NCBI RefSeq assembly: GCF_020740795.1
Contig: NC_067282.1
Span: 129,265,132-129,329,131 of the forward strand
Origin: Apus apus
Taxonomy: Eukaryota > Chordata > Aves > Apodiformes > Apodidae
Length of the DNA stretch: 64,000 nt
Direction of reading: 5' to 3'
Shown here: in pieces, positions 16,301 to 64,000 of the stretch
Numbering within the stretch: the stretch's first letter is position 1
Layout: each line of letters opens with the position of its first letter
The notes under the pieces: model-generated
What the model was told of the DNA's origin: nothing
What the model saw: the letters and a program-made list of their open reading frames with translations, nothing else
Database searches by the model: none
Program-made: the position numbers and the translations under genes

Positions 16301-19300
16301 GTCCATCTCCAACAGTGAGACTACCAATATATTAACTCTAAAAGTTATGTTATCCAAAAACATAGCTTTGGTTTTCAACAATAATTTTATTTCAGACTGC
16401 TAACTGGTTTTCTGTACAAAACAGCTGTAAAACTGTTGAAGCAATATTTAAACCCAACATGACTAACCACAAAAATACCAGTGACAAGCCTGAAGTTTTC
16501 ACTGTAAAACAAAAGATCTCTGCTCTAAAAATACCTTGTTGCATTGCGAGGACTACTTAAGAATTGCCATAAATTATCAGTAAGCTGAAATAATATCTTT
16601 AATAATTTTACATTGGTTATACATAAGAAATATCCATTTAATAAAATCAACTACTGGGAAAAATCCAAATATGCCATATCTTCAAAGATTATAGAGAAGT
16701 TTACAGTAGACTTGCTTTGGTACAAATGTTTATATAAAGAGTTGCAATTATTTTAGGTATTTTTCAGGAGAATAACTCTGATGCAACAAAACCCTACAAC
16801 CAAAGGTGGGGAGGCTGTCCTTTTTCCAAGCAACACGGAGCTCAGAAAGGCATTGTAAGTCCTCACTCTTTCCAGCTTGAGGCAAGATTTGTGTGAGAGC
16901 ATTTAAGAACCATAATACTTCCAAATTATAGCCATGGTTTACCAAAGCACAGGAAAAGACAAGTTAAGTAACAGCTAAGTGTTTGGAATCAGGCAAAATG
17001 TACTATGCTGTATGTTTTCATAGCTCTAAAGTCAGGAATGAACCTCTTCCCTTCTTTGAAATAACTTGTTTTCATCTTTAAACATGGTTACTGTTAAAAA
17101 CATATAAAGAGTACACTATTTCTCTGGATGCACTCAGTTCATATTTGAATGATGTCCACAGGCAGCCCACTATGCTTCCAAATCCTGAGAATCAAAGTGT
17201 TTTCTGCTAGGCTCAAGGTCAGATTTAAGGTCATTGTGAAAAACAAAGTATTGGTATAGAAGCTCTTACTAAGGTAAAAAAATAGAGAACTTCTGAGAAG
17301 AGGTGAACTATGTACACAAACAACAGAAAAATGCTTACGAAATTAAAGAAATGAACACGAAGTTTACTGGGGAATTAAGCTTCAAATGTAAACAACTTAT
17401 CCTGATTGAATTTGAAGAAAAGTAAGGTGGATTAAGTAAAGAATCTAAGATCATTTACTTTAAGCTGTGGACAGTCATGGAACTTAAGTTACAAGAGAGC
17501 TCATTAGCACAAGTTATTCACAATTGCTTACCCAAGATTCATGGTACAAAACTGTGAGGAGGTGTATGCCATAATCATAGTTCTGTCTTCTTAATGGACA
17601 CCTGAAAATTCATAACAAAGTTAGTCTTTTTGAAATCAAGGCACTTTAATATCCTTTTGAACAATATGTTAAACTTATCATCAAAATTTCTGATGTGTAA
17701 TGCAGGGAATCTTAGGGCAATGTGTGTTTGATTCACAGACATTTCTGAATTAGACATAATGAAGAATATAATAAAAACACAAGTATTAAGAAGAATGGGC
17801 ATCTATAAGTCAGTAGGAATACATACAAAATGGAAGAACTTGCAGATCTTCAGGAAACATTAAAAACTTCTTTGCCCTTTGTGCCAAAGTGAAAGCCAAC
17901 ATCCATTAATCTCAACTCCCTTAAATCCCAATTTATGGGTTTTTTCCCCAGGCCCAAAGGGAGGAGGATAAGCGGTGAGAACAGCCATGAAATACAGTTC
18001 AAAACAGACAATTTTCTACAAACTAGTCACTGAAATCTTCTGCTTGGAATGTGATGACATTAATTGCTTCCTCATGCTAGTTACCCATAAACTCCCGTCT
18101 CTTTTTCACACTGACCTCTTCCTGCAGGCTCCTTCATCCCCGTTTTTGATGCAGAACAAATTAAAACACGAGCGACTGCATCTGAGACACTCTAAAAACA
18201 TTAATCTGAATGACTGAACTACAACTATTCTAGCAAATAAAACTTTAAAAAGGAACTTTGACTTGTATTTCTTTCACAGGAAGAACCTCAGTCTGGAAAA
18301 TCTGGTATTAAAGAAATGGATACCATTTAGAGGTTTAGAATTTACTAAAACTGATGCAATTTCAACAAAGACATGGAATGTTCCTTTTGGAACACAGTAT
18401 GAAACCATTCACAGATGCTCTAGAGGGTAAACTCCTTTCAGCTAAGTTTTGCTAGGGAAATGAAAACTATTGGTAGCACAAGTGGTCCCAGAAAACTACC
18501 CAGGTTTCCAAGTCCACTCAAAAAAGACAAGAACAGTTTTATCCATTTTGTATTTATGTAGAAATAAAAAGATATTTACTACTGTAGGACAGGAAATTTA
18601 AAAAGGGAAAATGAATTCTAATAAAAATATGCACACAGAAAAGACTACCAATAATGTTTGTCCTACCACTGAAAGCAGCTGTGAATTGAAGTGTATTGTG
18701 AATTTTGGAATACATTTGTATTCTCTTAAACACTTTAGAATTCAACAGAGAAAATATGTTTCTCCCATGCAGAACTCTGAACACAACTGTAAATAACTAG
18801 CATGATTTGTTTGTATCTAGAACATCAAAACATTGAGAAATGTGTGATCATTCATGTCCCCATTTTTCTCACCTAAAACTCTTCAGATCAGCATCAAAAC
18901 TATCAGAACCCATTTGGGAAACATGACAACTACTTCACATTAAAAAATGAGACTTCTAAATACAGAGCTTCAATAACTAGCAATATTAAACACATACTAG
19001 GTTTCACCTTGTGTGACAATTTTAACAGTTAATAACTACTAGTAGTGTATTTTTCTTAAATTACATATTATCCTTCAAAATATAATCATTTACTAAGACA
19101 ATAATTGTTATTAATGGAAGACACACAGCCCTTTCTATACTGCAACAACTGCTAAAGGCTTTTTTTTTTTTTCTTCCTTCTTGTAACCATACCTGTCTGT
19201 TATAATTGTGAGTACATCTGTATCCTTACAGTACCGCTCTCCTACAAGTTTAATGAGCTTCTTCTTTGCATGGTCGTCCAAGTTCAGGTTGGAAAGCTTA

Positions 19301-22300
19301 ACCTTCAAGTACAAGAGAAAACACCTTTAATTACTTGAATAAAGGCAATCTCTGCACCCTGGAAATATTCTGAGATAGGGTTGTTTTGTTTTTTTATCAA
19401 GAATTAAAAGGACCTCTATTAAGAATGAATTTACAGAATTTCTTATGCTTGTATCACATCAGAAGACTTAAGGCAAGTAATCTGAATATTTAAAGAGTAA
19501 ATTTATTTTCATGCAAATAGCAGAGGAGCTGGGGGATAGTGTTTCTGCTTGAACTTTTTTTCAGAGGAAAAAAAGAGCTGTCAGTGTAGTTTGTAAGTGT
19601 AATTCGTATTCATGTGCATTTCATATGGGAAAATAAATCTTTTTTTAGACTTCTTTTTAAATGCAGATCAGTAAGGTTAATACGAAGATATAACAAATGT
19701 ATTTATGACAAGCATCACAAGATGAGGAAGAACATCACTTCAAGAGACATCAAATCAGAAACCTCAAATTCATTACTGGGAGATCAATGAAGTATCCAAA
19801 GATGCACACAGAAGATAATATAACGGACATAACTGATCAAACAATAACATGAATGGCTTGTCTTCTGTTTCAATACCAGAAAACCCCCAAACATAAGATA
19901 CACAACAAATAAATAGTCTGGGTTTTTTTAAATGCTGAGAAGTTAGTCTGAAGCTAGTTTATATACACACTAACAAGTATGAAAAGTAAAGCAAGATGGT
20001 TTTAGCTGTCTGTTTACACAATAGCAAATAAGAAGGCTATGAACTTAACATTCTAAAGATATATGGAGTTGGAAACACAAGTTTCTATTACTTGAGAGTT
20101 GTTAGGCAATATTAAAAATATGAAGACATATTAGTAGTCTCTTATTAATTAGTCCACTGTTTAGTTTTTTATCTATATCCTTTCTACTGTGTCATTGCTA
20201 TATTGAAGAGCTGTTAAAAAAATCAGGAAACTTCCATCAGAAAAACTAAAAAAAGTTGAAGGACTAAAATAAATTAGAAGCTCAAATAAATACCAGGAAA
20301 AATAAGTACTACCTGGAGATAAAGAACCCTACTACTACAAACAGAGAACTGAAGTACTAAACCTAAATATGACCAGGGAGGATACTACAGGGTTTCAATA
20401 TTGAAACTTAAAATCTTGGAAAAAAATACCTAACATTCACTACTCCACAGACTATATGAAAAAATGTCTCCTTTTTAAGGAATTACATCCTCCTTTGCAT
20501 GCATGCCTGTAGTACTGGTGAGCAGGACCCGACCCTAGCTTTGTTCCCTAGCTCACGTATTACCAAGTCTCATATACCCTATTAAATGCTCCCAGTCTTC
20601 AAGGAACTCCAATCTTTGTGTAGCCTAAGATGTCTATGAATGATCGCTTCTCATCATGATACTTCAAGATCCCTACACGCACACAACAACCCCTTCTAAA
20701 GGTCAAGGTTACCTTACACTCAGTGCTGCCAGGCAGCCTTTGAACAGTGGTGAAAAAAAAAAACAACAAAACCAAACCAGGAGCTATAAGAAGGTGGGCC
20801 TGCCCCAGCTTTACTGAGAAGCTGCATCTAATCTGAGGCACTCAGCCTTGGTCTCTGCCCAAGCCACGACACCTCCACAGCTGGCCCTACCCATGGCCCA
20901 CACTGACTAAACCCTGATGTACATCCTTGACTTCCTGGCTTGACATCACCTGCTGCATCACTAGGGATTGTCCATAACACAGTCAATGCTCTCTCATTCA
21001 CATAAACTTAACCACTATCTGACCCAGTGCTATCTGCTTTCACCTTTAAATCCTTTTCTCCCTCCCTAGGCAGCTTCTGTTGTCAGAGGATTAATCAGAG
21101 GATGAGAGAAAGAATGTATTAATTAAGTATTGGATCAGAACACCAGTAACTGGAAAAGCATATGGATAGTTGTTCCACTTCTGTTTCTCACTCCAGCTTC
21201 CCCTTTTTTTAATATACATTTAATACACATCCACATAATGCTTTACAAGTACCAAGAGCAGTTAACATTAAAGGACAGATTTAGACAGGGTAATACAGAC
21301 ATGATTATTTGAGTATAATTTTGAATTATCCTCTCCACAGAAACACAGCCAAGCCCTAGATCCAATATCTTGTTTCTCAACAGCCACATTTAACAAAGAC
21401 ATTTATACCTAGCCATGTTTTACACAACGTAGAAAGGAATAAATTCACATACACTCACCACCTGCTGGTTTTAATGGAAGGCAATTCAAATCTGTTTGAG
21501 CAGCTTTCTTCCCCCTGCCTGTGACACCATACACAGCACTGCCCTGCAAATGTCAGTATGACTCCCTTGGAGACAACTGAATATGGGAGCAAGTCCTATG
21601 TGTGCACCCTCCTGCACACATTCACAGCCCAGCATGAAGAGAGGGGTTTCTATTCTCCCAGACACACTGCATTGTTTGTTTTTTTCTCATGCACACAAAT
21701 CTGTGAAAACTTGCTCTTGGCGATGGATCTTAATTAGGAGACAAAAGGTTAAACTCTAGTATGTAATGACTACAAGGAGGTGGTGTAGTTATTCCTTCCT
21801 TAGCCATTTAAGTAAATGACAGACCAAATTAAATTTCAGCCCAAAAGGTTTGACAGCAAAAGGGGAAAGTGGAGACTCCTACAGCCAAAGTGAATTACTA
21901 CCATTCAAAGCTGCCATGATTAAATGTTGTAAAGGTGTTATGAGCATGTGGTATTGTGCAGTAGTTTAAATTCTATGCTGAAAAAACTAAGAACACAACT
22001 ATTAATGACCCCACTGCTGCTGCTCTTGAGAGGCTCACATGTCGTCTCAAAAGGCATGTTCCAAAGCCACAGCACAGTTCTAATTTACTACCATGAAGGT
22101 AGCACCAGTACCAGTACCAGTCTCCAGCCCTGAAGGTTTTCAAGGTCCAGCTGGATGAATCCCCAAGTAGCCTGGTCTGATCTCATACCCTGCTTACTTT
22201 GACCAGAAGGCTCAGCTGGAAAACTCCTGAACTCCCTTCCAACCTCAAGTATCGCATGACCCTCAGATCAGAAGGCTGCTGCTCCTACTGCACATGCACT

Positions 22301-29526: not shown

Positions 29527-29533
29527 TCCTTCT

Positions 29534-29551: not shown

Positions 29552-29756
29552 ACGGCAGCCGGCGGGGGCCGAGAGAGCCGCCAAGGCGAAGCGGGTTCTG
29601 CCTGTGACGAGGGGAAAGGCGGCTCTGAGCGCCCTCTGCGCCCGCCGTGTCCCCGCAGCAGGTCGCTTCCCCGAGCCCGGCTCGGGTTTTGCGGTGGCTG
29701 GAGGAAGCCGGGCGTACACCAGGCCGTGGGGGCGGAGGAGGCGCATCCCAGAGTCC

Positions 29757-40176: not shown

Positions 40177-40216
40177 GGTTCCACAGGGATCCATCTGGTT
40201 CCACAAGGATCCATCT
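40177..40216 (+). repeat. 20-bp tandem duplication at the CR1 5' junction
   Basis: GGTTCCACAGGGATCCATCT is followed at once by the same 20-mer with one mismatch (A for G). It lies at the 5' boundary of the CR1 copy. Confidence 0.85.
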
Positions 40217-44663: not shown

Positions 44664-45046
44664 ATGTCCTGTGATAGTGGAGAAATCGTTGGGCATCCAA
44701 TGCATAACCTCTGTGGACAGGTTCAAGGCTCCACTTCCCAGCTCAGCAGTCTAAATGGAAACAGGAAATCTGCAGCATGGCTGGAAGTCAGGGGGAGCTC
44801 AAGCAGTATGCAGTATTCTTCTGTGGCACTGGATCCAGAAACCCCAGTGAATGATGTAGCTGGGATTCCTTGCAATCCTGAGGAAGGCACAAAGGCTGCA
44901 GCCCTGGCAGACAGCAGAGTCCGCAGGGCCTGTACAACCGTGTTTTTCCACAGGCGCTATTTAACTAAAACTAGTACGCAGGGAGATGTCTACAACTTCC
45001 TGGAGAGGCCCAGTGGATGGAAGTGTTTCCTCTATCATTTTACTGT
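44664..45046 (+). CDS. KCNQ1-like voltage-gated K+ channel, first coding exon (partial gene)
   Basis: It encodes 127 residues plus two bases of a Val codon. The last 38 residues align with the end of KCNQ1 exon 1: the C-terminal part reads [20 protein letters not shown] then YHFTV, where KCNQ1 has [22 protein letters not shown]. This is the pre-S1 segment and the start of S1. The exon stops at ACT GT|GTAAGT, phase 2, with 383 coding nt against 386 nt in human exon 1. The ATG (44664) has A at -3 and is the first in frame after a TGA at 44628; an acceptor-like TTACAG ends just before it, so a 5' leader exon is possible. The preceding ~85 residues are not the Pro/Ala-rich N-terminus of KCNQ1 and match only loosely (an ALDP patch). 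KCNQ2-5 have a different motif (LERPRGWAFIYH). It is probably a KCNQ1 paralogue. Later exons were not found. Confidence 0.87.
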
Positions 45047-45052
45047 GTAAGT
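45047..45052 (+). other. Splice donor of the KCNQ1-like exon
   Basis: GTAAGT, a consensus donor, sits exactly where human KCNQ1 exon 1 is spliced (inside the Val codon that follows YHFA/YHFT). Reading through gives an immediate TAA, so translation requires splicing. Confidence 0.85.
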
Positions 45053-48000
45053 ACCTACATTTTTACTGATTATTTGGTGTAAGAAAAGTTGGAAGCTGTC
45101 TGCTTAATCGGCCAGAAATCATAGTACTGAAGCTCTCAGGCTGAAAATCGGTTGTGTTAGCAATCCCATTGAAAGCAATGGAAAAGCCAGTTTCCCAAAG
45201 GCTCAGCTGCTATATCCATTCACATTTTGAGAGGAGTACTTTTTATTCTTCACTTGATATTTGTCTTCAAAGACATACACTGCATATTTGATATTTCTGA
45301 GGTGAAGTCCTATATGCTTATGACAGTTTTTATTGCTGTCTTGGCTGCTTCACATTGTTCTACCTTCAGACACTACAGTTCTTAGCATGGGATGTGGAAA
45401 GTTCAGCTGTGCTCAGGTGTGTCACATGTTTTTTAAGTCTGTTTTGCTCATGCTGAAGTGCCAAAACAAGTAGTTTGTTGGACAAACATATAATAATAAC
45501 ATAACTGTTTTATATTAATTTACAGTCATGAACACATGAGTAATAACTTACAAAAAGTTTTTCATTATACCAGTATGTAGTACATGCAAGGAGGAAATTA
45601 AGGCTTCCATTTACACGTGTAAAACAGTGGTTAATATATTAATACAACTGTTACTGTTTTCTTTGAGCTGCTTATGGTATCTGTCAAGTTAAGCAAGACC
45701 TCTGATACTGTTTTGAATGCTGCTTAACAGAACTATAATTTGTCATCTTAGCTGTAGAAAGGGCCCAACTGTGCTCTCACTGAGGCAAAAAGAAGTTTTA
45801 CTGTCTGTAGTGAATGCAAACTGAGCCCTAAGTCCCTGCTTTTATTATAAAATTGGCATCTGTCCTGAAGAAATGCAATGTTGAAATATTCTGTTTGTCT
45901 CAGATGAACTTTTCTATGGCCTGGCTGCATTTTGGAAAAGCCATTATCAGTTACTGCAGTCAGAAACTGCCCAGAGAAACACATGGTGATTATAAATTGT
46001 TATACTTCTATTTGGCATAAAATAGGTGTTCTTATTAATGCTTGCCTCCTTTTGCCCCTCAAATCATATATGGGTTTTTAAAAATGGATTTCTGAATTAA
46101 TGACATTTTGCCAAGTAAAAGGATAAGGCCTCTTTCAAGGACTATGCTTATAGTATATAATAACTCCTAAGGCTTAAACAGATGGAATTTATGTAGATTT
46201 AAATATGTGGATAGTAATTATTTAAGCTTATTTGAGGTTAAGACTTTTTAATCTTGGTAAAACACATTCCATCATCTGTGTTGCTTTTATCTCAGACTAA
46301 GGTTGATCTTTGATACGTACTTATGCAATGGGCATGAAAATAAAATAAAAAAATAATCCATTTACACCCCCCCTCCTTCATGCTAGAAAACTGGAGAAAA
46401 TATTGGTATTACTAACAGATAATATATTTTTTTAAACAGTACAAGGATTCCTAACTTTTCATAACAAATCCAGTCTTCAAAGTATGAAGTTGATATTTGT
46501 GTAGCCTGGAGGAACTGGATGTGCAGCATCTCTTAATTGTCCTTTTGTCCTTCATGTGCCACAAACCCCATATAATTCACGTACAAACTTTTTGCATAGA
46601 AACTTCCCACAAGGGGCTGGAATCCTAATCTGGAGCCAGTCCTGCTGCAAAGAGCCTCACTTTCCAGAAACAGACAAGGTGAGGGAACAGTGAGTGCTCC
46701 AGGAGATGACCTTTCTCTTGTGTTCCAAAATTGCCAAGATCATCTCATCTCCTATAACATTTGCAGTGTGCCTGATACTTCAAGTTTCTTTGAAGGGGAT
46801 GAGCTCATGCTTCTTAAGGGACTTTATAATGCATGTTAGAAAAGGGAATTATTGTTGCCTAATTAAATCTGGAATTTGTGTTATTTTAGTGGAGTTATTC
46901 TAGGCTAAAATTATGGTTTCAAAGCAAACCATTTGAAGGTATGAGAGGGTTTTGCTTGAGAATTGCCCCTCCCAGTCCTGAAAATCTTCTCACTTAGGTA
47001 ATTTTCAGCTTCATTGGATGTACTATGAAATAATTAACTCCTGAAATCCTCAAGAATTGAGTAGAGGGTTTCACTGACAAGTTAGAAAGAGGAGAGGGCT
47101 TGAGAAACAGCTGTGACATGGAATAGCAATGCATTGATCCTAACCAACCAATTCTTGTGGCTACGTAAGAGCCTTGAGATATTGGATATCAACATACATT
47201 AGAGCCCAGCTGTTTGTCATGCTGTCCTCAGTCAAGAAAATGAAGCATGTGCCTGGCTTGAATTTGATTTCTGAACTCAGTTATGCGCTTGCTTAAATCA
47301 GATCCAAATGTCAAGATATTAGGGTATAACCCTCGTATTTTATTCTTTGAATGAAAAGCACAATATGTGTTGATGATGAGTTATGTATGGTAATGAAGTT
47401 ACTTGGCAAATGCATACATTTAAATAATTTAAGTGGAGCCTTGTTCCTCTGATTAATATATGCTTCTGAAACATAAATGCATTTAATTACAACTGGAATG
47501 CCTCAGTTATAGTCTAGAATATTATGTTCATTTGGCTAGAATATTGTGCTCACAGACCTACGAACTGAGTGGGGAGGGGTGAAGCCAGACAGTTTTATTG
47601 ATCATAAGACTATTGACCCGTTTAGACACCAGGTAGCAATGAACATAAACCAAAACCAGAAGCCACTGTAGGTGCTCAAAGTCCTCAAATGTATTTGTGG
47701 TGGGGAATGTAACATTGCCAAGTCCTTGCAGGACACCTTGGCCATAGACGAAAGGTGGAGAAGGTGGCATGCCTTTTCTACTGTGTTTATAGAGGCAGAG
47801 AACTAGAAGTAGGGAGGTGTGACTCAAGCCTAGTGAAAGAAGAGGATAGCTGTATGTGCACACACGTGCCTTCATGCACTGAAGTCGGGACTGACAATAG
47901 AACAATATGGTTTCACTTGTGTTCATGGAGAAGAGATAACTGCTTGCTGTCAGATTTTCTTTTGTTGTGTGAGTGATAGAGGCCACCTTGTGTCCATCTA

Positions 48001-51000
48001 AGGCTATTGAACTCCTCTGGCACAGGTCCCAGGGAAAAAGCAAGGGAGTATGCACAGGTTTGCCCTGAGGTTGAATGGCCTTTTATATCAGCAAGAACGG
48101 TGATAGTACCTTTTCTTCTCAGATACTCCCTGTTCTACTTACTCAGTGCAGTCTCTCTGCCTTTTCTAATCTTTTCCATTTCTCTGAAACACCCAGTGAC
48201 ATCTAATTTTTGGTCTTTTCAGCTGCTGTCAGCCTGAGTAGCTGACTTTTTTAGTTAAAAGTCAGAAGCTTAGAGGGAAGCTGAGTGGGTAACACTTGGA
48301 GAAGAGGAATAGGGACAGAGGAGAACCTAGGACTGAGAGACAAAAAGCTCACATGGATTGTCATAGACACTGAGACTCATGCTGGTGATGCTTAACTGGA
48401 GAAAAAATGATACAAGAGCAGGCTAGCTCAAGAACAAAGAAGCAGACTTTGGTAAGAAGGATAAAGGAAGAAGGATTAGCAGCTTTTGGAGATCAGAAGG
48501 CTGGATAGGCACAAGGAGCTGGAACAGCAGGACAGCTGAAAATGGTCAAGAATCTCTGAGAGCCACTGGGAGGAAGAAGGGGAAGGATATGACAGCTGGA
48601 AGCTAGGGAAAAGAGGCAGTGTGGAATTCATGATGGGAGAAGGAACCTTTCACCCCTAGGCAACTGGTTTGAATCTCATCCAAGTCAATAGTGAAGAAGA
48701 AGTAATGACTGCGGGGAGATACAAAAGGAGCTTTTGGTCTCAGTCCAGTTCTTAGTGAACGGATGTCAGCATCACCGCTGGAGTTAGCACAGCTGGAAGG
48801 CTTGCTGGCAGTCAGTAGAGAAACCACAGGCTGGTTGAAAAAGGGAGGCAAGTCTAAGGCAAGAGGGAGGCCCACGAGAGGGACTTTCAGGTTGTGTTCT
48901 CAGGCCTGCCACTTTCTTGTCGTGTAACACTGTGAAAGTTTAAGTGAGAACTTGCAGCTGTTCCAGGTAACTTGGTGCTGGTTTGGCCACTTGTTAAATG
49001 AGTGCTAGACCTTTTTTAAAAGTCACACTAATCTTTATATTCTATAAGTTCCCATGGGATGGGCTGAGCTAATCTAACAGCCCACTGCTAACAAACCACC
49101 TCCAGTTCTGCTCCCCCTCCCCTCATCTGCCTTAGCCATTCAGCTTGCTCTTGCCAGCTCTAGTTGTCCTTGGATATCCTAGAAACACTGAACCAATTCA
49201 ACGTATTATGCCAGCAAAAACTTAGCCAAGCAGGAAAAAGTGAATGGTCTTCTGTCAGGTTAGTAAAACACATTCAGAACCTTGAAGTACTGTCCTCTAT
49301 TGTTCTCTTGGTGCTCCTAGTGGATCATGTTAAACTTCACATAAAATTGTACAGAATAATTGCGAAATAACACTGCAAATCATCTGGCAAATACTGCAGA
49401 CCACCTGGTTTGACTGCAAAACATTTCACAAATGCAGAGTTCACCTAGCAACAAAGTTTGCTCTCGAGGCTCCCTTATGATTTATGGGGAAACAAGTCCT
49501 CCAAATGGTGACTCAGAGTGGATAATGGCCATTGCTCTGAACCATTCAAAGGATATGCTGTCAGTTTCTCTGTTGACCTCATGGGAAGGATAAGGAGAAT
49601 GTCCTCCTTAGAATATGGTTTCACAAGATTTGGCATAATAGTTTACTAGGACCTAAAGGGGAAGTTTGCCTCTCTCACCTTCCCATCTTCTCTCCTGGCC
49701 ACACGTTTCTTCTGTGTTCTGCTTCTGGCCCTCACTTCTAAGCAAAGTCAACTCATTGTAATGGCAGAAATCTAGCCCAGCAAGAGAGTGAGTATCTTTT
49801 GATACCTTAAGGAGGTAGAGCATCTCAGCAAATGGTCTGATGATGCTGGAAACCAGTTCTAACCAGTTGGCTAGGGCTAAAATGGACGGAGGAGAGCTTT
49901 CCTTTTTGCCACCAAAGAACTGTGGCATTGCTCATATGCTCAGTTGCATATGAAAAAAATGACCTGAGTTTGCTTTGTTTTGCTTTGCTTTGTGAGAAAT
50001 TACCATTGAGTAATTTAAAATTGTTTGATCCTTACAAAAATATGAGAATCAATATAACTTTGGGAGGAAAGTGCAGAAGATCAATAGCATGTTTCTAAAA
50101 TGGAGGCTGGACAGTTGAGGGTTTGATCTTTTAGAAAAAATTCCATGGACCAAAGTCTGTGTCGCCATGAGTAGTACAAAAAGAAGAGAGTTCAGATTAT
50201 TGGGACAAGTAAAAATAGCAGTTTTCTCTTATTATTCTTTCTCTTCAAACTTCATTTACTCAATTTTATTATTTTTTTTTACTTCGCTCAACTTCATGTA
50301 AGAAATGCTGTAGACGTGCTCTGGTAATGCAGCTGGAAAACTTAAGAGCCACCATTCTGGCTGATACTCCATTTCTGTTGGGCATACAACTGCTGCTGAT
50401 GTAAAGAACATTAAAAGGAAAAATTATAATGGTCTAGCCGTTCTTTTTAATAACTGTGGGGCATTTGCCTGCATATATTTTGTTTCTTTGAGTGTAGCAG
50501 CTCTCAGTTAGTGAAAATAAATATATACAGCAAGTAAGTTAGCATAGTGTTCTGCTTCTGTTTTTATCAGTAAATGCAGCCTATAGTCCGTTATAAATAA
50601 CTGTTTATCTCAAAGGGACTGTCAAATTCCTATTTCTGTCCTTTCCACAATTATTACTAGAATGCAAGCAGATATCTTGCTTTTTCCAATGATGTGACTG
50701 TAATATGACCAACACGAGCAACGACTAAAGTTCAGAGTAATTATAAGCATATGACTGCTTTTGAGATTTTGGGTTTGACCTTGATGTCACAGCTCAGATC
50801 TGGACATGATGTGCTTTCAAAAGGATAAGTTAGGGCTTATTATTATTATTATTATTGGGTTCAGGATGTTTCTTTCCAGCATAACAGTTAATTATTTTAT
50901 ACAGACATTTTATACAGAAAATGAACTGACAAATTTTCCATTTTAGAACTACAGCAGCTACTTTTTGTCTATACACTAACTACAGAGAGGTACTAAGCTA

Positions 51001-52124
51001 CAGTCTTGTCTATGGTTATAAACTTCAGGTACAAAAAGATGAGTGGTATTAAAGTGAAGAACCTGATTTTATTGAAATGGAATGTTCTGTTTACTGCTTA
51101 GTGTTTCATGTTCAACTGGCTGAAATGGTGAAATGGCTTAAGTTGCTGGTGGAGGTGCATTAGATTAAACAGAATTATCTTTAGGATTCAGTGAAATCCC
51201 AGGATTGGGCTGTTCTAAAAATACATGGGGCAGCTATAAATTTTTAGCCACTTTTCCTAAGGAAATGAGGTCTATGCAACCACACTGAATAAGTGCATCT
51301 GTCTGAAAGTGCCTTACAAAAACTGCTGCCAAGTTTCAGCTAATATTGACAGAGGATGAGACATGTCAGAGATATCAAGTTTCTTCATGTTTTAATAAAA
51401 TAAGCATTTGGGTAGGCGAAAGTTAAATTAATAACCCCAAAGATGAAAATGCTTCACTTTGAGGTCAATTAGATTGTTTGGCACCAAGAAGTCTTTTCAG
51501 GAGAGAGATGTCACAGAAGTTCCAAATGAAGATCTTTGATGTGAGAGTACTTCACTTTAGGAGCACAATAACCTAACCACAGGGCACAAAGCCACAGGCT
51601 ACGTAAGTTTTATTTTCTTTTTCTTTTTTTTTTAATTATTGATGACTTTTTCCATAATTTATATAAAAAATCCAATCCATCTTATTTTAGAAGCTCAGTT
51701 TTGTACCAGACTGTGCAATGAAAATGGCTTAATGTCCCCACAGGCTAATGTTGTTTCTATAGTGAAATCATTTGTTTCTCTAGTGAAAACAAATACTGTA
51801 GTGTGGTGTTGATATGGTGCTATTGATGGAATTTGGTTACACTTTTGTGGAAACATACAGTGTTCTTATAGAAACCAGCAAAATAAAAAGTTACTCCTTG
51901 ATGTTAACATTAGAATTGTTCATTAACTTGTGGACTCCACATGGTATCAAGTTCAAGAAGTGTTTAAGATGTCTCTGTGATAATCAAGCTGGCATTACCC
52001 TACTACTGGATGTACTTGTACAGAATCTTTCTTTCCCTTTTTTGATACTGAGCCTAAGAAACATTATTTAATGTCAGCACCACAAAGAGGTTGGCATTAC
52101 TTTGGAAATGGTTGTAGCAAGTTC
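45053..52124 (+). other. Presumed intron of the KCNQ1-like gene
   Basis: No KCNQ-type exon (S1 end, S2-S3, pore) was recognised. The 165-codon minus frame at 47558-48055 and others are unrecognised. Simple repeats occur at 49970-49993 (GCTTT-type) and 50837-50856. Confidence 0.5.
50837..50856. repeat. (TTA)n microsatellite
   Basis: Twenty bases of TTA repeat in the interval downstream of the KCNQ1-like exon. Confidence 0.85.
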
Positions 52125-52344
52125 CTGACCTGTTGCAGAATGGCTTGAGCAGCAGGGCCATGGGCCCCTGCTATCTCCTCGAGAGGCCTTGAGAGTGTGG
52201 CACAAACAGCAGCTGTACAAGCAATCTCTTTTTTTTAGCCTAACACAAGTATAAACAATCTCTGTTAGCTTAAACTAACTCAAGGACAAGGTAGAGAAGT
52301 AGAATGATAGAAAACAAGGAAGAACCCTGGAACTCAGATGTGTG

Positions 52345-52460
52345 TTATTATCCAGTAAAATCACTGCAAGTAGTTGCCGTCCAGTGAAATCACTACAAGT
52401 AGTTACTATCCAATGAATTCACTATGCGTGGTTACTATCCAATGAATTCACTACATGTAG
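52345..52460 (+). repeat. Four tandem 29-bp repeats in the LTR U3 region
   Basis: Units at 52345-52373, 52374-52402, 52403-52431 and 52432-52460, each with a TATCCAATGAATTCACTA-like core. The last two carry perfect CCAAT boxes; the first two have CCAGT. They lie just upstream of the LTR TATA box and so resemble a retroviral enhancer array. Confidence 0.9.
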
Positions 52461-52473
52461 GTTTGGAAAAGGG

Positions 52474-52502
52474 TATAAAAGTAACGCTGTGTATTCAATA
52501 AA
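52474..52502 (+). promoter_or_regulatory. LTR TATA box and polyadenylation signal
   Basis: TATAAAA (52474-52480) and AATAAA (52497-52502) lie 17 bp apart inside the solo LTR. The tight spacing implies a short R region, as in alpharetrovirus-like LTRs. Confidence 0.75.
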
Positions 52503-52568
52503 TCGAAGCTTGCTTTATCAATCACATTGATTCTGGACTGCTTGCTTCCCTCGCCACCGGCACTGACC

Positions 52569-54748
52569 CTGTGGAGATGTGTCACAGATTACATGCTGGG
52601 ACCTACTGATTTTTTTGTCTCACAGTCAAGGTTGATGGTAACTGTATTAGAATCATGAACACTGATCGTGTGATGATCAGTCATAATGATGAACTGTTTC
52701 TGTCAATGTGTAAAGAATTGATTAGGTCTCTTCTAGGAAGTCTTTGTGATAGAGAATCAAAGTGAAAGCTTGATTCCTGTGCCCAAGGAAGGAGAGGACA
52801 TCCGACATTCTGGTAATGAGACAAACATAGCACAGGTGATGGTGGAAAATACATGGACTAAATTGAATTGGGGAGCTTAAATCCTAGGAATGGCAGGGCA
52901 TTTGAAAAAATACGGTTTCTGTAAGATCAGTGTTCCTGGCAAGTGTAATGAATGCATGAATGTCATCTGTCAGTTCTGGGCTAGTGCCAGCTAGACTCAA
53001 AGAAATTGCAAAATCCAAATCTTCGTGGTCTTTGAAGAGCAGCAAATACATTAGGTTGTTAAATGCTTTGAAAATGTGAAGCGCTCATTACTAATAGAAG
53101 CTGTGGATGCTTTCAGAATAACATTGTTTTGGCAGTGGATTCAGAAAGCTGGTTTGAAGTGAGTAATCTTTTTGTATTACAGCTCATGCTGTGATGTGAA
53201 CAGCACTGGTGTTAGCTATTGACTGAAACAGGTTTGTGTTGTTATACACATGCAGGTGAAATGTCTCAAGAAAAATACAGAATAGCAGTGTGTCTGTAAA
53301 TTGCTTTTTACATTTTCTAGGTGTTTTAGAAATATTAGCTAGTTACTTCTGATTGGAGCCAGCTGGAGAACTTCATTTTATGTGCAATTGGGCTATCAGG
53401 CATTTCTGGATGCAACTCAGAATGAGCTGAAGAAAAAACTGAGAACAGATATATTCAGTATACTCATGTTATAGGTGGAATTTTCCTTTGGTTGAAGGCT
53501 TCAAATTCCTGAAAATGCTTTATTCTGAGGCAAAACAGGAAGTCAGATATGCCCAGACTGTCTGCCAGGCGGGCTGCTGGTTAGTAAGTGTCCAAAGCTA
53601 GGCAAGCTTTCATTAAAACCTGTCTAGTCTCCTCCATTTCTGCTGAAACCAACACATTCCCAGACTAGTTTCTAATTTTAATGTAATAGTATTTTCAACA
53701 GAAAAACTGTTCCTTTATGAAAATTTCCAACCAACTCCTACTTTGTGTATGATCACATACATGTAAGAGCAAGAACTTTTGACAAAAAATCAAGCTCCAG
53801 GGGTCTGGAAATACGTTGATGAGAGAACTGAGGGATGTCAAAATTTGCCTACAAAGGCATATGTGCAGCCTTCTCTTTATGACTTAGTCAGAAACTCCCT
53901 TGGATAATGAAAAATATGTAAGCACCAGGAATGAGATTTTATTCAGACTAGCAGGAATGCTTTATAGAATACATGTTTATTCAACATTAGATAGTAAAAT
54001 CCAATTTATAAGAAAGTTAAGTGCTTCATGCACTCAGGAATGAGAATATCTTGCGATTCCATGGCATGAAAAATGGAAATGCTCTCCTTAATTTTTCTGC
54101 CACAAAATAACCACTTAAAATAAAAAGCAGCCCACACCTCTGGAGCCCCTCAAATAACTTTCTGTTGGCTAAACACATTTATTCTCCCTAACAACAGGCT
54201 GTCTTGAAGCTATCAGTCTCCACTGGACAACTCTGTAGTCTATCATATAGAAAAAAGCTGAAGCTCCAATGATGCAATTGCATATAGATTTACTTCACTT
54301 TTACCCTCAATCCAATCTCTTTTTCTTGTAATGTCACTCCAGCTGAAGACACTGGATTTCTTATAGCCTAGTCTGTTAACAGTAGAGGTTTCTGACTTCA
54401 CATCTTGCTGGAGCAAGCAGTAGATAAGATAAAAAAACTATTTAAGACATTTAAAAAGATGTGTTTTGGATATAATTTGAACTGAAGACACTTAGAAGCC
54501 ATTTGTGATTATCGAGATGAAGGGCTTTCGTATAGCAAAGTAAGTCATGGCACCTCAGTTCGAGGAAGGGGCAGCAGGGGAAGGACACACCTCATTGTGT
54601 TGAAAACATCAGTGACTCATGATCCAAATACTACAGAGCATAGGTTTCAATAGCTTTTCTATAGTAACTTTTTGTTTATTTTCTTTCACTATAGAGCTCA
54701 CATTTTTCTAAAAATGTTTTTGTCTTTCAAAACACAATTTAGAGCTGT
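52569..54748 (+). other. Presumed intron of the KCNQ1-like gene
   Basis: AT-rich, between the solo LTR and a CR1; nothing recognised. Confidence 0.5.
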
Positions 54749-55312
54749 AGAATCATAGAATGGTTTGGGTTAGGAGGGACCTTAAAGATCATCTAGTTCC
54801 AACCCCCCTGCATGGGCAAGGACACCTCCCACTAGACCAGGTTGCTCAGAACCCCATCCAGCCTGGCCTTGAACACTTCCATGTGGCATGCCCCAAGGAT
54901 GGGGCATCCACAACTTCCCTGGGCAACCTGTGCCAGTGTCTCACCATCCTCACAGTGAAGAATTTCTTCCTCATGTCTAATCTGAAACTCCCCTCTTTCA
55001 GCTTAAAGCCAGTACCCCTCATCCTATCACTAAAAGCCCTTGTACAAACCCTTGTAAAAAAGTCCCTCCCCAGCTTTCCTATTGACCTTTCAGGTACTGG
55101 AAGGTGGCTGGCTATAAGGTCTCCCTGGAGCCTCCTCTTCTGCAGGCTGTTCAACCCCACCTCTCTCAGCCTGTCTTCATAGCAGAGGTGCTCCAGCCCT
55201 CTGATCACCTTCACGGCCCTCCTCTGAGCTCACTCCAGGAGCTCCATGTTCTTCTTATGTTGGGGACTCCAGAGCTGGACACTGTACTCTGGGTGGGGTC
55301 TCATAAGAGCAG
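54749..55312 (-). mobile_element. CR1 LINE, 3' region, well preserved
   Basis: It opens AGAATCATAGAATGGTTTGG, then CCTTGAACACTTCCATG, GGCAACCTGTGCCAGTG and CCTCCTCTTCTGCAGGCTG, and ends near TGGGTGGGGTCTCATAAG. A 122-residue minus frame (54846-55214) carries the RT C-terminal text. Confidence 0.94.
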
Positions 55313-58300
55313 AAACTTAGCGTAGTCAATTAAATTTGGCCAAAAGGCCAGAAAGCTACAATTTTGTGTTTTGTTGCCAAGGAGTATATCTCTTGTTATC
55401 CAGTTTATAAGTTTGTGCACTCCTCACCCATCCCTTTTTTGTTGGTCAAGAGATAACATTCCCACAAGCATCTCATATGTCAACACTTCAGATACACTTA
55501 TCTGCAGTAGATAAACACAAAAAACACATGCATGGATAGTCTTTGCTAGAAATGGCATTATTTGATGTAAAACTTAAAAGGAATTTTTAATACTTCTCCT
55601 TTAAGAGCTTTCATTAGGCTTTTATTCCATGGAAAACTAGATTGTTATAGCATGACCTTAAAAGAGTTCACCCTTGAAAAAGTACTTGACATAATTTTGC
55701 TTTCAGTTTTGTAGTTAACCTATTATTTCCAGGTTTTTTTGTAGGCATTAGTAGAACATGCTCATAGCTGATTAATCTATTAAACAGAATGTGTCCCTGG
55801 CAACAATAACTACAGAAACATGTTTACAGTTACATTATCTACTCTCCAAAATGAAGCAATATTTAGGAAGGTCAGGACACAGAGGCACTTATTTGTGACA
55901 TTTAACAACAGCTGATTGAGTGTCCAAATTGCCAGTAGAGCCTATTTAAATTTGTTAATATATGAAAGAGTTTTAAGATTAAACAGATTACATTTTAAAC
56001 ATTTAATAATGTTTAAAAACATTTATTAAAAAGAAGTTGTATTTTATTGTATGCATGAGGCTTAAGGAATTTAAAAGAAATCAAGAAATACTAACATTTA
56101 GTGTACATTAGCAAGATCTCTCTGAGGAAAGCATGGCACCTCCATCTTCTGTTGGTGTGATCTGCATTAGGTGAGAATTTGAACTCAAATGAGAAACTCT
56201 CAGATAATCCTATTTCCTCTGATAAGCACCACTTTTTAAATTTTCTTTTTAAAGAGAGACTGAGGAAAAGTCTGCGAAAATGTGACTGGGGGAAGGTTTC
56301 TGTCTTCAGAAAAGTAAAAAACTGAAGGAAAAGTAAGCCAGGTGTTTTGAGAGGAAATGTGTTTCTATTTTTAGCATCTATATGGTAGAAAAGGAAAACA
56401 GTATTTGCTGAAGTGCTAGCTCAAGCTATGGTTTGACATCCTGGGGAATCACAGAAAGACTCAGACAGGACTACATACCAGAAATCAGCACCTCAGTTCT
56501 TTGGGATACAAAAAGAGTAGACCAACTCTACTACTTGGTAACTATTAATAATCTCCTCCTTATCAGTTCCTTCAATTTAGGAACTGAGCAGCCACCAAGT
56601 AAGACTGTTCTCTGTTGCTGTAAATATTTACTTCCTTGCAAGTAGTTAATCGCAACCTGTTAGCACCCTCTTAAAGCACAGAGAACTGCCCATTGCAGGA
56701 GAGAGTATGGATAGCAGGGAACAAGAGAAAGCCAAACTGGCAGCTGGCAGGGAAAGGGAAATTGCCACTTAAAAAACTTTAATTTTGTTGGTTTAGGGTG
56801 AAAGTAGTTAAACTCACACCCATCCACTTATCCTTCCTATAAGTATCCCAGAAATCTAATCAGAAATATTTAGGGAGACCCAGGACCTGGAGTCACTTAC
56901 TGACAAGTTAACTCTAGTGGACTTTGCCAATGCATTGCTTGTCTCTAGAAACAAAACATGAAGTGAGACTTAAAGACAAACTAGTGGTATTAAGCAGTGA
57001 GTCTTGTCAAAGGTTTGTATGTGGTACCACACATTCAACTGTTGTCCTCTTCTTTATAGGGAATTTGGTGCTCACCCAAGCTTTGTTTGTTTTGGGGTTT
57101 TTTCCCCAGTATGTTTAAAAAGGTCATTGGTTAGAACTACATTTAGCATCTCTGAGGCCCTTAGGAGCAAACCACAAGGAGTTTTCCTGATTGCCTAAGG
57201 GGCAACAGAGCTGTAGCTTGTTGGATTCTGCAAATCAGTTGGCAACTAATTAAGAAATTTATCTTTAAATTTAGAGTTCTCAAAACTAACTGCATTCTGG
57301 TGCATTGCTCTATGTCAGAGGTAGAAAAATAAATCTTTTTTTTTTTTTAAATAAAAAATTAAGGCAGTATGGCACTGACTGCTGGTTTAAAGATACCAGA
57401 AGGAGAAGGAAATGCTCTTCTACTGTATTAGAGGAAAAGGTGCTAAAGAATTCTTGGTTTTATTGGAATGGATTTACTTGTTGGGCAGGGAGTACTTGAC
57501 CTTTGTTTCCGCTTCTTGTCTCCAGCACTTTTCTCATAACACAGATACCACTTGCTTACCCAGCTCAGCCCCGTGGCTTCCTTCCAACAGCCTGTGGTGG
57601 GCACTGAGAGTATAAACAGCTCCACTGCTGTGGCAGGCGTGTCACCAGCAACAGCTAAAACCTGTCTCTAGGCCTAGTCTGTAAACCATGGGTCATGAAA
57701 ACTACCTCTAGGATCTCGGCTCTGTCCTTTTCCTGCCTCTCCTTCCAGGACACATGTATCCACTGAGAGGGGAGAGGAGTGCCAGCTTCTTCACGCTGAG
57801 GTTGTGTCTGAACCATGAACAGCCACCTGTGTTAAGTGAAAGGGAAGTCATATATTGTAGGATCACTACCTGGAACAGTACAATTTTGGTTTTTGTGTAT
57901 GTTTTTGTACCTACCTTAAAATGCTCCAGTTACTTGTGCCATCTTCAGCCTATCTGACTCTGGCTGTTAATACCAGAAACTATTCCTTACCTGTTTCGAG
58001 TTCAATGCCTAAACACTTCAAGTACAGACTGGGAAAATCTTCTTTCCTATTGGTTGTGAGGGGCAGTGATTAGGTACTTGCTATTCCCACTTACTTCAGC
58101 AGGCTTTTCTGTCCTCATGGAGTTTACAGGCTGCTGCAGCCCATAGACTGTATGGCAAGATTATTAAAGCATCTCAGGTCTAGGCTCTCTGAGATTACTT
58201 AGAAGAAGGAAAAACAGCTGTGTTTTTGAAACATAAAGTTTCCCAATCTGTAGTGGGGGAGGTTTACAGCATTTTGGGGAGTTGTGGTCAAAAAAGGAGC

Positions 58301-61300
58301 CCTTAGTATTGGGAAGGCCTTTGTTTGAGGTACCTCTTGCACGCAGAGGAATTTGTCTTCTGAGCCACAAAACTACTGTATGGTCTCGGACTGTCAAAGA
58401 GGTTGGAGGAAGCCAGTAGAAAATTATTATGTTAAGTACATTGCCTGAGCAGTAGAACTGAGAGTCTCAGTTTGTTCATTACTTTCAGCTGATAGTACTG
58501 GAAAGACAGAGCTTTTTGTTGAGATTATACACGCTAGAAAAAAAAAAAGTTTCTGTATTCTGGATCTTGTGTGTCATAACTAATGCTGTATATGCTTATT
58601 GAACAATTTTTTTCACGTTATTCATGCAAATAATGAAATAAAGTTAATCTTGTCCAGGATTTCCCAGTGATCCTTGAAAAGTAATGGGCAGTAAAATACA
58701 TTTTTTTGTCAATGCAGAGTGGTTTGTTCCACATACAAAGGACTGTGGAACACAGCTGCAAAAATGGCACTGTTGCTGAAGCTAATATTTCCATACAGTT
58801 ATGGATTGTTTCTATATGGTTGTGTGGGATAGCACATGGAATATAGAGTGCAATAAATGTTCTGGTCAGGTGGTGGTAGGGAAGGTACAAAGCAGCACGC
58901 AGTTGCAGACAGGGAACAGCAGGAGACGTGGATGGAGATGCTGGCTGTAAAGTGAAACTTGAGAGCAGAAATGCTCCTTTGTTTAATATCTGCTAAGATT
59001 GCATAGCTGCAGGTTTCCTCAGCTGCTCCCTGCAGGTGTGTTGCTCCAGGACAAGGCAGCATACGTGTACTCACTTTAAATTAGCTAGATCAGGTACTGC
59101 TACCACAGCAGACTAGAAAGCACACACAGCGTTTTAGGCAGCTAACCTGTGCTGAAATACTCTGCCACTGGCAGTTCCCCGGCTAGCCAGTTCAAAGCTA
59201 ACTTGGGTGTACCTATTTCAGCTCCAGTAGCAGTTGTGTAGACACGCCCTGAGGTCAATATGGGAAGTAATCACAGACGTTGCCAGAGCACTGAGTGTAC
59301 CAAAAGGCTCACCAGAGCAGATGGTGTGCTGATGCTCCTAGAGCCTTGAGAGCAACCCTCTTCCTATCAAAGTGTGTCCCCACACCTTGCAAAGGTCTGG
59401 TTTTGGAGGAGGACTTCTAAAAACCCCTTGGTTGAGATTCATACATAGTGTCCACTCATTCTGATTGATTTATAACAAATTTGTCTGTCTCAAACTCCAT
59501 TAAACATTCTCCTTTGGAGTGAATAATCACATGTTAGTGGTCATTCAGCATGGGCAAAACTGGCTCAGATCATGGGATTTGTGCTTTCTCTCACTAATAC
59601 ATCAGGAAGCAAAATTCTCTTTAGCGGTCTGGGTGATCTGCTGGTTGATTATGTCCCCTAATTCAGCTCCAGAGGTAGATGTGCTGTAGGCACTCCATCA
59701 GGTTTTGCATGTGAAGGGAAACACATTCCTGCTGTGGGTTACAACCTAATTTAGAAATGCCTTAATCCAGTGGTAGCTAAACAAGCCGTGTTTTTATAAA
59801 GGCTTCCATAAGATTGCTAAGTTATTTTGTTAACCTTTTTATTTGTAGGGCTTTTCTCTCCTGTGTGTACATGGTAGTTTCTTCTTTGTTTGTCTCTTCT
59901 TTTTTTCTTTCTTTTCTTTTTTTCTCTTTTTAATAGTGTGCATTTACTCTTAAGATTTTTTTTCTAAATACTAAATCTTTAGGTACCAGGACAGTTGGTA
60001 TAGTCAGAATTAAACCAGCTGTTCTGAAAGGAAAACACTAGACTAACTTACGTTATGGTAAAATCATGGTTGTGAAAAGTGATTTCTTTGTGTGCGGCTC
60101 TTTTTTTGTGTTTTTTTTTTTGTTGTTGTTGTTACTGCTGTTCTTGGTGTTGGTACTTGTTGGGAACCCTGTCATTAATCTGCAGTTATTTTTGCCTTTA
60201 TCCTCACTGCAGCTTCATCTGCTCCCTCCTCATGTGAACTACCCTTGTGTTATAGTTCAGTTGCTTCTGCCACTGCTTATCCTGCCTTGCTCTGAATGTC
60301 AGTCTCAAGTGTGTCTTCAGTTCTATTTTCAACTTACATATGCTTTGTAGGTATCATTCTGTTTTGTTGTGCAGTTGACAGAAGTGATGAGCACAACATC
60401 AAAAAGACAAGCAGGTCAGCATGAGTGATGGAAGGGAGTGTTTTCTGAGCCTGTCTTGGGTGTGAAGAAGAGTTGAATGGAAGATGCCGGCTGCTAGTGT
60501 CTTTAGTGTTGAGCATTAAGTAAAACAAATAATAGGGAAAAAAAAAAACACAACTATCTAAACTTACTGTGAACTTATCTCACTAAAAACTAAGATGCCT
60601 TCCCTTAGGCTGGAAGGACCGTCTACTCAAAAACGCCCCTTACCCTCTGAGCATGTGTAATAAGAAGTAGAAGTGCTGCCACTTTTAAGGGGAAGCGAGG
60701 AACTAGTGAACTAATCATGTAGATGAATGATACTGCTATACGTAGAGATAAGGTCATTTTGCATTTTTTGGAGTATAAAAGAAACCCTGTGCTATGGGGA
60801 AGGGGTGCTAGCTTTGTGGATTTACCACCTAGCACTCTTTTCTGCACAGAACTGGAATAAAGAAATACCTTGACTTTGTGTGTGCGGATCAGATTATTGC
60901 ACACTAGGTAAATGGACCCCGTTTTGGGACAACAAACAGGGTCACTAGATGTGGGCACTTAAGTGCACGGAGTTGTTAATAGTGTGATGTACAAAGAGAA
61001 GAACTTCCTGCTTGACATTACCAGGTGGGTTTTATATTACAGTTTGGATTTGGGAAGGGAGACTGTTGAAACTGGAATATACCTAGGAGCTCTGAAGCTA
61101 ACTCTTCCCCTCTTGCAAAAATCAAGTCTTGATCTTTTATGGCCAAAAGTGATCAGCAGTGATTCTACATTTCAAATAAATACATTTTACACGAGAACAT
61201 GATGAATCTCTGCAGAATGTCCAGCCTATCGTGTACTAGCAAAATTATGCCTTTGTTATTCATTGGGAAGGAGCGACACTCACTGGCCAAAATATATAGT

Positions 61301-62738
61301 GACATAAATTAATTTAAAGGCTCCCTTTGAATGGTTTTAATGTGTGTTCTGGAAAATGAAAAAAAGAGAGACTCTCAACAAATAATTACAAGAGGAAAGC
61401 AACAATTAGCTGAAAGTTACAAAACTCGCAGGCTTTATTAGCAGCCTTTGGACAGTTCTGAGTCCCTTAGTAAATAAATGGCACCAACTGTCCTCTCTTA
61501 TACATCCTAATAAGCCTAACAGGAGATGTGGTGTGAACTCCTTATCAGCTTGCTGTTTTCCATTTGACAAATGCTGGCGTGTGTTTCATTCTCTCTTCTC
61601 AACCTTAACTTTTTGCTCTGGTTCTACTCTGCTTTTTGCTTTGGTTTTCTTTTTTTTTTGGGAGAACCACTCCCCGGAACGGTACCTACGGGAAGAAAGT
61701 GAGACTTTTGCCCCCTCTGCTGGCTGGTTTCTCTTTGCTCAGTATAGTGCCTCATTAAAACATCAGTACCGTTTTATTATGACTTGGACAGAACTCTATC
61801 CCCTACAACATACCACCGTTTTCAAAGAGATTAACGCTTGGGGATGGCAGTAAAACTACTGAATAATATGCCCAGCAACATGTGTATGTTGAAGTAGCAG
61901 GACTGGGTGATAGGCCAGTGTGTAACATGTAAATAATGAGCACGTGGCTAAGTTCTGTCCCACACTAAAAGCACTGCTAGCCCTGACTAGGATGTGGTAT
62001 CTGGATCTCTTTTCCCTTTCAGCCTTATTTGTTCTCAAGGCCTTTCAGCCCCAGTTATTTTCCATTAATGAAGAACTAGAAATCAGTAAGATGCCCACCA
62101 CAAACAATATTTTTCTTTGTTGACACAATTGAAAAGGGTAGAACAGATTCCTGAATATAAAAGACTCAGAGAAATCAGATTGTAATAATGCTTAAGCATG
62201 ATAAACACGTTTCCCCATTGGCTCCTTTCCTCCTGGCAGCACAGGTTTGTCTTGTTCTTCTATACAGTGTTGCTGAATCTTAGACCTTTACCAGCTGCCT
62301 CTTAGCTAAGACAAGGCCAATACTGGGCATACTCAGGAACAGAGTTCAAGAGAACCAGATAGTGCCTAGAAGTTTCCTGAAGGCCTCCAGAAGATTGCTG
62401 CCCTTTGAGGGGTTAGATAGAAACCTCAAAAAACCTGCTTCTTTTTGTGTCCTAGTCTCCCTTGAGCAGTTTTCAGAAAAAAATAGTCAACTATTTCAAG
62501 TTCCCCTTTGGTAAGAAATGCAGTATAATGATTATTTATTTATTTATTCTACAAAGAGATCAAGATATCAAACCCTTGGAATAGAACCAACAGCCCTAAA
62601 CTGTATGCCTAGTTAATACAATCTGAAGCTGGCTCTTTACGACTAGGTGCCTAAAATATTTCCCGTATGTCTGGCCCAGTATTTCTACTTGATGCTAATG
62701 AGTAGCTTCTGATTGGGCTTAGCACCTTTCTGTATTAC
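55313..62738 (+). other. Presumed intron of the KCNQ1-like gene
   Basis: 7.4 kb with T-rich tracts (59890-59935, 60101-60133) and no recognised exon. If the channel gene ends elsewhere or is dead, this is intergenic. Confidence 0.45.
60101..60133. repeat. T-rich / (GTT)n tract
   Basis: A run of T broken by GTG, followed by four GTT units. It underlies a spurious hydrophobic open frame. Confidence 0.8.
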
Positions 62739-64000
62739 GGAATCACAGAATAGTCATGAATGGAAAGGACCTCTGAAATCACCGAGTCCAACCATAAAAC
62801 CCAAAAAACCAAACAACAAAAACCAGACCACAAAACGCACCCCAAAAACCCCACACAACCTACAATCTCAGCTACTAGAGCATGCCCTGAGGCTAATAAT
62901 CTACACTTTTCTTGAATACATCCAAGGTTGGTGACTCCACCACCTCCCTGGGCAGGCTGTTCCAGTGGCTGATCACTCTTTCAGTAAAGAAATTCTTCCT
63001 AAAATCCAATCTGAACCTCCCCTGCTGCAACTTGAAGTGATTTCCTCTTGTCCTGTCATTATTCACTTTGGAGAAGAGGCCAACACCCACCTCCCTACAA
63101 CCTCCTTGCAGGTAGCTGAAGAGAGCAATGAGGTCTCCCCTGAGCCTCCTCTTCTCTAAACTAAACATCCCCAGTTCCCTCAGCCACTCTTTGTATGACT
63201 TGTTCTCTAGGCCCTTCACCATCCTTGTTGCTGTCCTCTGGACTCTCTCCAGCACCTCAATGTCCTTCTTGTAGTGAGGGGCCCAGAACTGAACACAGAA
63301 CTTGAGGTGCAGCCTCACCAGTGCTGAGCACAGGGGCACGATCACTTCCCTACTCTTTCAGGCCACGCTATTCCTGATGCAGGCCAGGATGCCATTGGCC
63401 TTCTTGGCCACCTGGGCACACTGCTGGCTCATGTTCAGCTGGCTGTCCACCAGCACCCCCAGGTCCTTTCCTGCTGAGCAGCTCTCCAGCCACACTTCCC
63501 CCAGCCTCTAGAGTTGTTGTGACTGAAATGCAGGACCCAGCACTTGGCCTTATTGAATCTCATGCAATTGGCCTTGGTCCATCAATCCAGCCTGCCCTCT
63601 AGCAGATCAACACTCCCACCCCATTTGGTATAATCTGCAGACTTACTGAGGGTGCACTCAATCCCCTCATCCAGATCACAGATAAAACTATTGAACAAGA
63701 CTGGCCCCAAACCTGAGCCCTGAGGGACACCACTGGTGACCAGCCACCAGCTAGCTTTGACCTCCTTTACCACAACTCTCTGGGCCCGGCCATCCAGCCG
63801 GTGTTTTACCCAGTGAAGAGTTCACTTGTCTATGCCACGATTCTCCAGCTTCTCCAGGAGAATGCTGTGGGAGATGGTGTCAAAGGCCTTACCAAAGTCC
63901 AGGTAGAAAATGTCCGCAGCATTGTCCTCATCCAAAAGGTGGGTCACATTGATCATAGAAAGAGATCAGGTTGGTCAAGGAAGTCCTGCCTTTCATAAAC
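62739..64000 (-). mobile_element. CR1 LINE, at least 1.26 kb, runs off the right edge
   Basis: The 3' end starts at GGAATCACAGAATAGTCATG with an A/C-rich insertion after it. It then continues through the GGCTGTTCCAGTGGCTGA block, [10 protein letters not shown] coding and the [16 protein letters not shown] block, up to the palm region at the window end. The catalytic motif is damaged (SADYTK where FADDTK is usual). Two long open pieces remain (62893-63345 and 63582-63773). Confidence 0.95.

Follow-up and report, generated by a model that had tools for sequence, protein, structure and literature searches.

A predicted KCNQ1-like potassium channel gene, KCNQ1L, begins beside MRPS35 in the common swift (Apus apus)

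The window analyzed here, a 64,000 nt stretch of the common swift genome (C1:129265132-129329131), contains on its plus strand the first coding exon of a KCNQ1-type channel gene, in the following called KCNQ1L. This exon (44664..45046; 383 nt) starts with an ATG, comprises 127 codons plus 2 nt in an open frame and ends at a phase-2 GTAAGT donor, as the earlier note had read it from the letters. The closest in-frame stop codon upstream lies at 44628. Neither end is truncated, and both the exon and the phase assigned to it hold up. A divergent N-terminus comes first, and the exon ends just before S1. A PDB search aligned the last ~32 residues to KCNQ1 chains with an E-value of ~1e-9. Over 127 amino acids, the best bird match is the KCNQ1-like protein P0002 of the loon Gavia stellata (84% identity); three gulls follow with 82–83% and two hummingbirds with 80–81%. 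This similarity to KCNQ1 and KCNQ1-like proteins is far above chance. The locus is the only full-length match for the exon 1 protein in the swift's own genome, and a Pfam search with exon 1 alone yielded no match. An acceptor-like TTACAG stops one base 5′ of the ATG, and a further 5′ UTR exon may therefore lie upstream. The exon together with 0.7 kb of upstream sequence (window 44000-45100) is poor in CpG, with an observed/expected ratio of 0.13–0.19.

The proximity to MRPS35 that had been proposed for this exon was borne out by an open reading frame on the opposite strand of the window (19135..19326), which exceeded the Pfam PF10213 (MRP-S28) cut-off of 22.3 with a score of 30.7 bits and which, from this family match, we take to be an MRPS35 exon. 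The open reading frame at 7080-7391 and the stretch at 29440-29820, both below all Pfam cut-offs, presumably also belong to MRPS35. The presumed MRPS35 promoter (window 28500-30000) is rich in CpG, with an observed/expected ratio of 0.81 and a GC content of 0.62. Open reading frames at 40141-41007 and ~62893-63357 resemble what we take to be fragments of CR1-type retroelements. Searching the window by tblastn with 120 KCNQ1-like proteins, and also with a human KCNQ1 sequence, revealed no further KCNQ1L exons. A GWKCF-like match at 8014-8049 reached a best E-value of 0.21 and was taken as chance.

From the donor to its end, the window is occupied by the first part of intron 1 (45047..64000, plus strand), which in the gene model is 24,241 nt long. 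Exon 2 follows at C1:129334419-129334509 on the same strand, ~5.3 kb beyond the window end. The model was obtained by searching the Apus apus genome (1.10 Gb, 110 contigs) with P0002, which found the exons in order on C1; the borders were then read and the small exon 14 was sought separately. It comprises 15 exons on the plus strand from C1:129309795 to 129612854, with lengths of 383, 91, 127, 79, 97, 141, 111, 96, 129, 163, 115, 76, 95, 41 and 62 nt. All 14 introns obey the GT-AG rule, exon 15 is followed by GTAAGT, and the 602 joined codons contain neither a stop nor a frameshift. Matches on C1 with 72–88% identity, several of them with stops inside, had early on raised the suspicion of a pseudogene, but the borders showed that these stops came from reading through into introns at the exon edges. 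The model is 92.0% identical to the proteins of two hummingbirds and of Calonectris and 91.7% to that of Gavia; the protein P0005 of a hummingbird shares with it 94% of the residues of the S4 exon and 100% of those of exon 7, from the pore to S6. The rest of the channel, whose absence the earlier note had considered, is represented by the intact exons 2–15. A scan of the 44 kb after exon 15 did not find the last coding exon, which in relatives encodes ~50 residues. Intron 11 spans 199.0 kb (C1:129400667-129599665) in this bird genome of 1.1 Gb.

The swift genome contains a second gene, KCNQ1, located on the minus strand of contig C6 from 16.050 to at least 15.801 Mb. The first-exon match of the Apus apus KCNQ1 protein P0234, in the region at C6:16050308, spans 133 residues and is 100% identical, so the swift is not a species without a separate KCNQ1, a case that the earlier note had set against its own reading. 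Judged from the end of this match, with a putative splice site, KCNQ1 exon 1 appears to have 132 codons plus 2 nt. The identity between P0234 and the KCNQ1L model is 67.9% over 539 columns.

Phylogenetic analysis assigned these two genes to different clades. With KCNQ2 and KCNQ4 as outgroup, a tree that did not include swift KCNQ1L separated KCNQ1L from KCNQ1 at 72/100, with the root not resolved and the bootstrap not settled, and we therefore rebuilt the trees without an outgroup. A maximum-likelihood tree of 50 rows then split KCNQ1L (29 rows) from KCNQ1 (21 rows) with a support of 100/100, a value also reached in another tree without outgroup. Swift KCNQ1L does not fall inside the KCNQ1 orthologues, a placement that the earlier note had set against its own reading. 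In the 50-row tree, the swift's two genes fall one into each clade, 12 species supply both genes, and swift KCNQ1L groups with the KCNQ1L proteins of two hummingbirds (100/97). The KCNQ1L proteins of sarcopterygians form a clade that excludes KCNQ1 (98/96), and the separating branch has a length of 0.41. Searched against the PDB, the loon protein P0002 of KCNQ1L scores ~790 bits with KCNQ1, 453 with KCNQ5, 437 with KCNQ4 and 435 with KCNQ2.

A further tree of 43 rows, from which a number of tetrapod rows of the 50-row tree, including those of the hummingbirds, were omitted, added nine fish proteins, five from sharks or rays and four from teleosts, all of which were placed on the KCNQ1L side. 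Seven of them belong to 18 new rows from a search with the coelacanth protein and two came from the search with the window exon; the other 11 new rows were assigned by BLAST. Compared by BLAST with seven reference proteins, all 120 rows of the window-exon search (best 120 of 4135) were nearer to KCNQ1L, as were 18 of 18 new rows from the coelacanth query, and the 120 listed rows of the KCNQ1 search were without exception nearer to KCNQ1. All seven cartilaginous-fish rows of the 43-row tree fall within KCNQ1L, a result favored by their having been fetched with KCNQ1L-like queries.

The KCNQ1L rows of the 50-row tree include shark, chimaera, ray-finned fishes, coelacanth, amphibians, squamates, turtles, alligator and birds; P0088, which is also one of the seven cartilaginous-fish rows of the 43-row tree, is presumably the chimaera Callorhinchus, judged from its accession. 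The KCNQ1L clade also takes in records from sharks and gar whose name is plain KCNQ1, with no “like” added (P0085, P0087, P0097 and P0105), and P0245, a turtle protein of the KCNQ1L type, is labeled as a 1,4-alpha-glucan-branching enzyme by one source. No fish KCNQ1 proper was recognized among the rows listed in the KCNQ1L-type and KCNQ1 searches. Mammals were not found among the rows with species shown when the query contained the window exon as its first half (best 120 of 4135), nor among the species-labeled rows when the N-terminal 140 residues of the coelacanth KCNQ1L protein were used (best 120 of 388). The proposed lack of this gene in mammals agrees with these results and with the available part of the 2013 study by Lovell, Carleton and Mello (PMC3711925), in which KCNQ1L was named and described as related to, yet distinct from, KCNQ1. 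The study reports that finch, chicken, lizard, frog and fish have KCNQ1L, that mouse and human do not, and that mammals have lost it. On zebra finch chromosome 1A, it is placed between MRPS35 (printed MSPR35) and CDKN1B. KCNQ1L has thus been known since 2013, and the present finding is a rediscovery, right in most details; database records also label members of the family as KCNQ1-like.

Residues within exon 1 distinguish the two clades. We compared 120 listed KCNQ1 rows with 118 KCNQ1L rows (best 120 of 4135, leaving out P0070 and P0120, in which the pattern was unmatched), with isoforms of one gene included in the counts. The residue before VYNF is R in 119 of 120 KCNQ1 rows, whereas KCNQ1L rows have D (83 of 118), N (17), Q (12), E (3), V (2) or R (1). 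In the motif ERP[x]G, T occupies the variable position in all 120 KCNQ1 rows versus S in 110 of 118 KCNQ1L rows, and in CF[x]YH, V (115/120) stands opposite I (97/118). The three departures from KCNQ1 that the earlier note had pointed out thus differ in kind. D and S are what most KCNQ1L rows carry, but L, the window's letter in CF[x]YH, is a minority state where I is usual, shared by 9 of 118 KCNQ1L rows from fish, shark and one frog row. At fifteen positions, none of them between human residues 215 and 377, the two clades differ, each having its own letter in at least 95% of its rows (27 for KCNQ1L, 21 for KCNQ1). A PKA-type motif, [RK][RK]x[ST], precedes VYNF in 90 of 103 KCNQ1 rows versus 24 of 118 KCNQ1L rows and is absent from the window exon; for this count, rows with fewer than 80 residues before VYNF were dropped (17 KCNQ1, 2 KCNQ1L). 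This contrast might point to phosphorylation being controlled differently in the two genes, but the motif occurs at different places and we make no claim on this point.

Two readings of the locus would make it something other than a second functional channel gene. If swift KCNQ1L were a decaying pseudogene, with exon 1 surviving in a gene no longer functional, this might account for the variation of exon 1 among birds (84% at best), for the last exon not being found in the 44 kb past exon 15, and for the absence of an Apus apus row among the best 120 of 4135 relatives. Fifteen exons with intact splice borders and an open frame of 602 codons make decay highly improbable, as does the near or full identity of the S4 exon and of exon 7 to the hummingbird protein P0005; moreover, the swift protein may be present but unlisted inside a 90% cluster, such as that of P0005 with its 129 members. 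The chance that KCNQ1L is instead the genome's sole KCNQ1, moved or misassembled beside MRPS35, is negligible, because the KCNQ1 gene on C6 and the tree refute it; the failure of Pfam to match the exon alone and the several family records named KCNQ1 without “like” would fit such a reading. We conclude that the exon is very probably the first coding exon of KCNQ1L, an ohnologue of KCNQ1, in the common swift, and that the gene is predicted to encode a KCNQ1-like K+ channel.

The origin of KCNQ1L is reflected in its neighborhood. In the swift genome, MRPS35 and CDKN1B flank the gene on its two sides. CDKN1B (C1:129875096, minus strand; 68% identity to human CDKN1B over 158 amino acids) lies beyond the 3′ end of KCNQ1L in convergent orientation. 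On C6, CDKN1C lies likewise beyond the 3′ end of KCNQ1 and convergent to it, at 15.654 Mb (60% identity over 97 amino acids to the N-terminus of human CDKN1C). Three genes of the PTH family were located, one each on C1 (129.160 Mb), C6 (9.304 Mb) and C24 (2.121 Mb); from place and score, we infer that the C1 gene is PTHLH and the C6 gene PTH. KCNA-type channel genes occur at 127.4–127.6 Mb on C1, at 6.74 Mb on C6 and within 1.83–1.99 Mb on C24 (one per contig was checked against the PDB). The presence of a KCNQ1–CDKN1 pair in the same orientation on two contigs, together with PTH-family genes on both, indicates a block duplication. These paired neighbors support the view that KCNQ1L is an ohnologue of KCNQ1, the second copy from the vertebrate genome duplications, as the earlier note had proposed.

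Two side observations concern the same gene families. On C24, KCNA-type, PTH-type and CDKN1A-type genes cluster at 1.83–2.15 Mb (loci L006, L015 and L060) as a third paralogous block, and no KCNQ1-like match on C24 was found among the genome matches listed. On C1, two CDKN1-type genes are located ~65 kb apart, CDKN1B itself (L059) and a second one at C1:129940100 (L061), whose 160-codon open frame gives nearly the same score against human CDKN1A (72 bits) as against human CDKN1B (69 bits).

A younger duplication, for instance in the stem of bony fishes or tetrapods, would be the main alternative to an origin in the vertebrate genome duplications. The root was not resolved with KCNQ2 and KCNQ4, so the date is based on synteny, on the presence of KCNQ1L in cartilaginous fish and on what the 2013 study reports for zebrafish. 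That root and the lack of a recognized fish KCNQ1 proper among the listed rows leave room for a later date, and the available part of the 2013 paper states that the duplication “likely occurred in fish” (PMC3711925). The same source has zebrafish carrying both KCNQ1 and KCNQ1L, however, and the position of KCNQ1 outside the sarcopterygian KCNQ1L clade, with its long separating branch, the matching orientation of the CDKN1B and CDKN1C pairs and the PTH-family genes on both contigs make a younger date improbable.

The evidence appears evenly balanced as to whether KCNQ1–CDKN1C and KCNQ1L–CDKN1B are the halves of one duplicated convergent pair and the shark and ray “KCNQ1” of the databases, perhaps including the one studied in the shark rectal gland, is KCNQ1L. 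If true, shark KCNQ1 data may describe a gene that mammals have lost. The KCNQ1–CDKN1C locus is imprinted in mammals, and the pairing of KCNQ1L with CDKN1B represents a duplicate of this well-known neighborhood that can be used for comparison.

At the protein level, the S4, S4-S5/S5, TIGYGD pore and S6 strings are identical in the KCNQ1L model, swift KCNQ1 and human KCNQ1. The identity of S6 continues into the calmodulin-binding stretch, and the helix C string matched once its first letter was dropped, while the full string failed. KCNQ1L would thus be predicted to form the alpha subunit of a tetrameric, voltage-gated K+ channel similar to KCNQ1, probably mediating a slow, voltage-opened K+ efflux that calmodulin, PIP2 and KCNE subunits may modulate. 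Its N-terminus and the control exerted there would be the part most unlike KCNQ1. Because the entry for clone FE721111 in the 2013 table on zebra finch brain reads “No signal Detected” (PMC3711925, available part), epithelia or another non-neural tissue appear more likely as its site of action.

These predictions matter for the interpretation of the better-known sister gene. A retained sister channel means that results on KCNQ1, which underlies long-QT syndrome and acts in gastric and inner-ear K+ transport, are not simply transferable between mammals and other vertebrates, and bird, frog and fish records named KCNQ1 need to be checked for which of the two genes they represent.

Compared with known systems, KCNQ1L shares with KCNQ1 (Kv7.1) the character of a six-transmembrane K+ channel alpha subunit, and HFT(V) is the motif at which the first-exon match stops in KCNQ1 as well, with a putative splice site there. 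The two differ in that KCNQ1 resides on another contig and the alignment between them begins only at about residue 100. KCNQ2-5 (Kv7.2-7.5) belong to the same superfamily and gave weaker matches in the swift's own genome. Compared with the finch KCNQ1L of 2013, which was a partial model in the available part of that report (PMC3711925), the swift gene has 15 exons joined into one intact model; this model, the cartilaginous-fish members and the mirrored CDKN1B and CDKN1C neighbors go beyond what that part describes. Whereas the 2013 paper placed the duplication in fish, the cartilaginous-fish members and the pairing of CDKN1B with CDKN1C point to an older block duplication.
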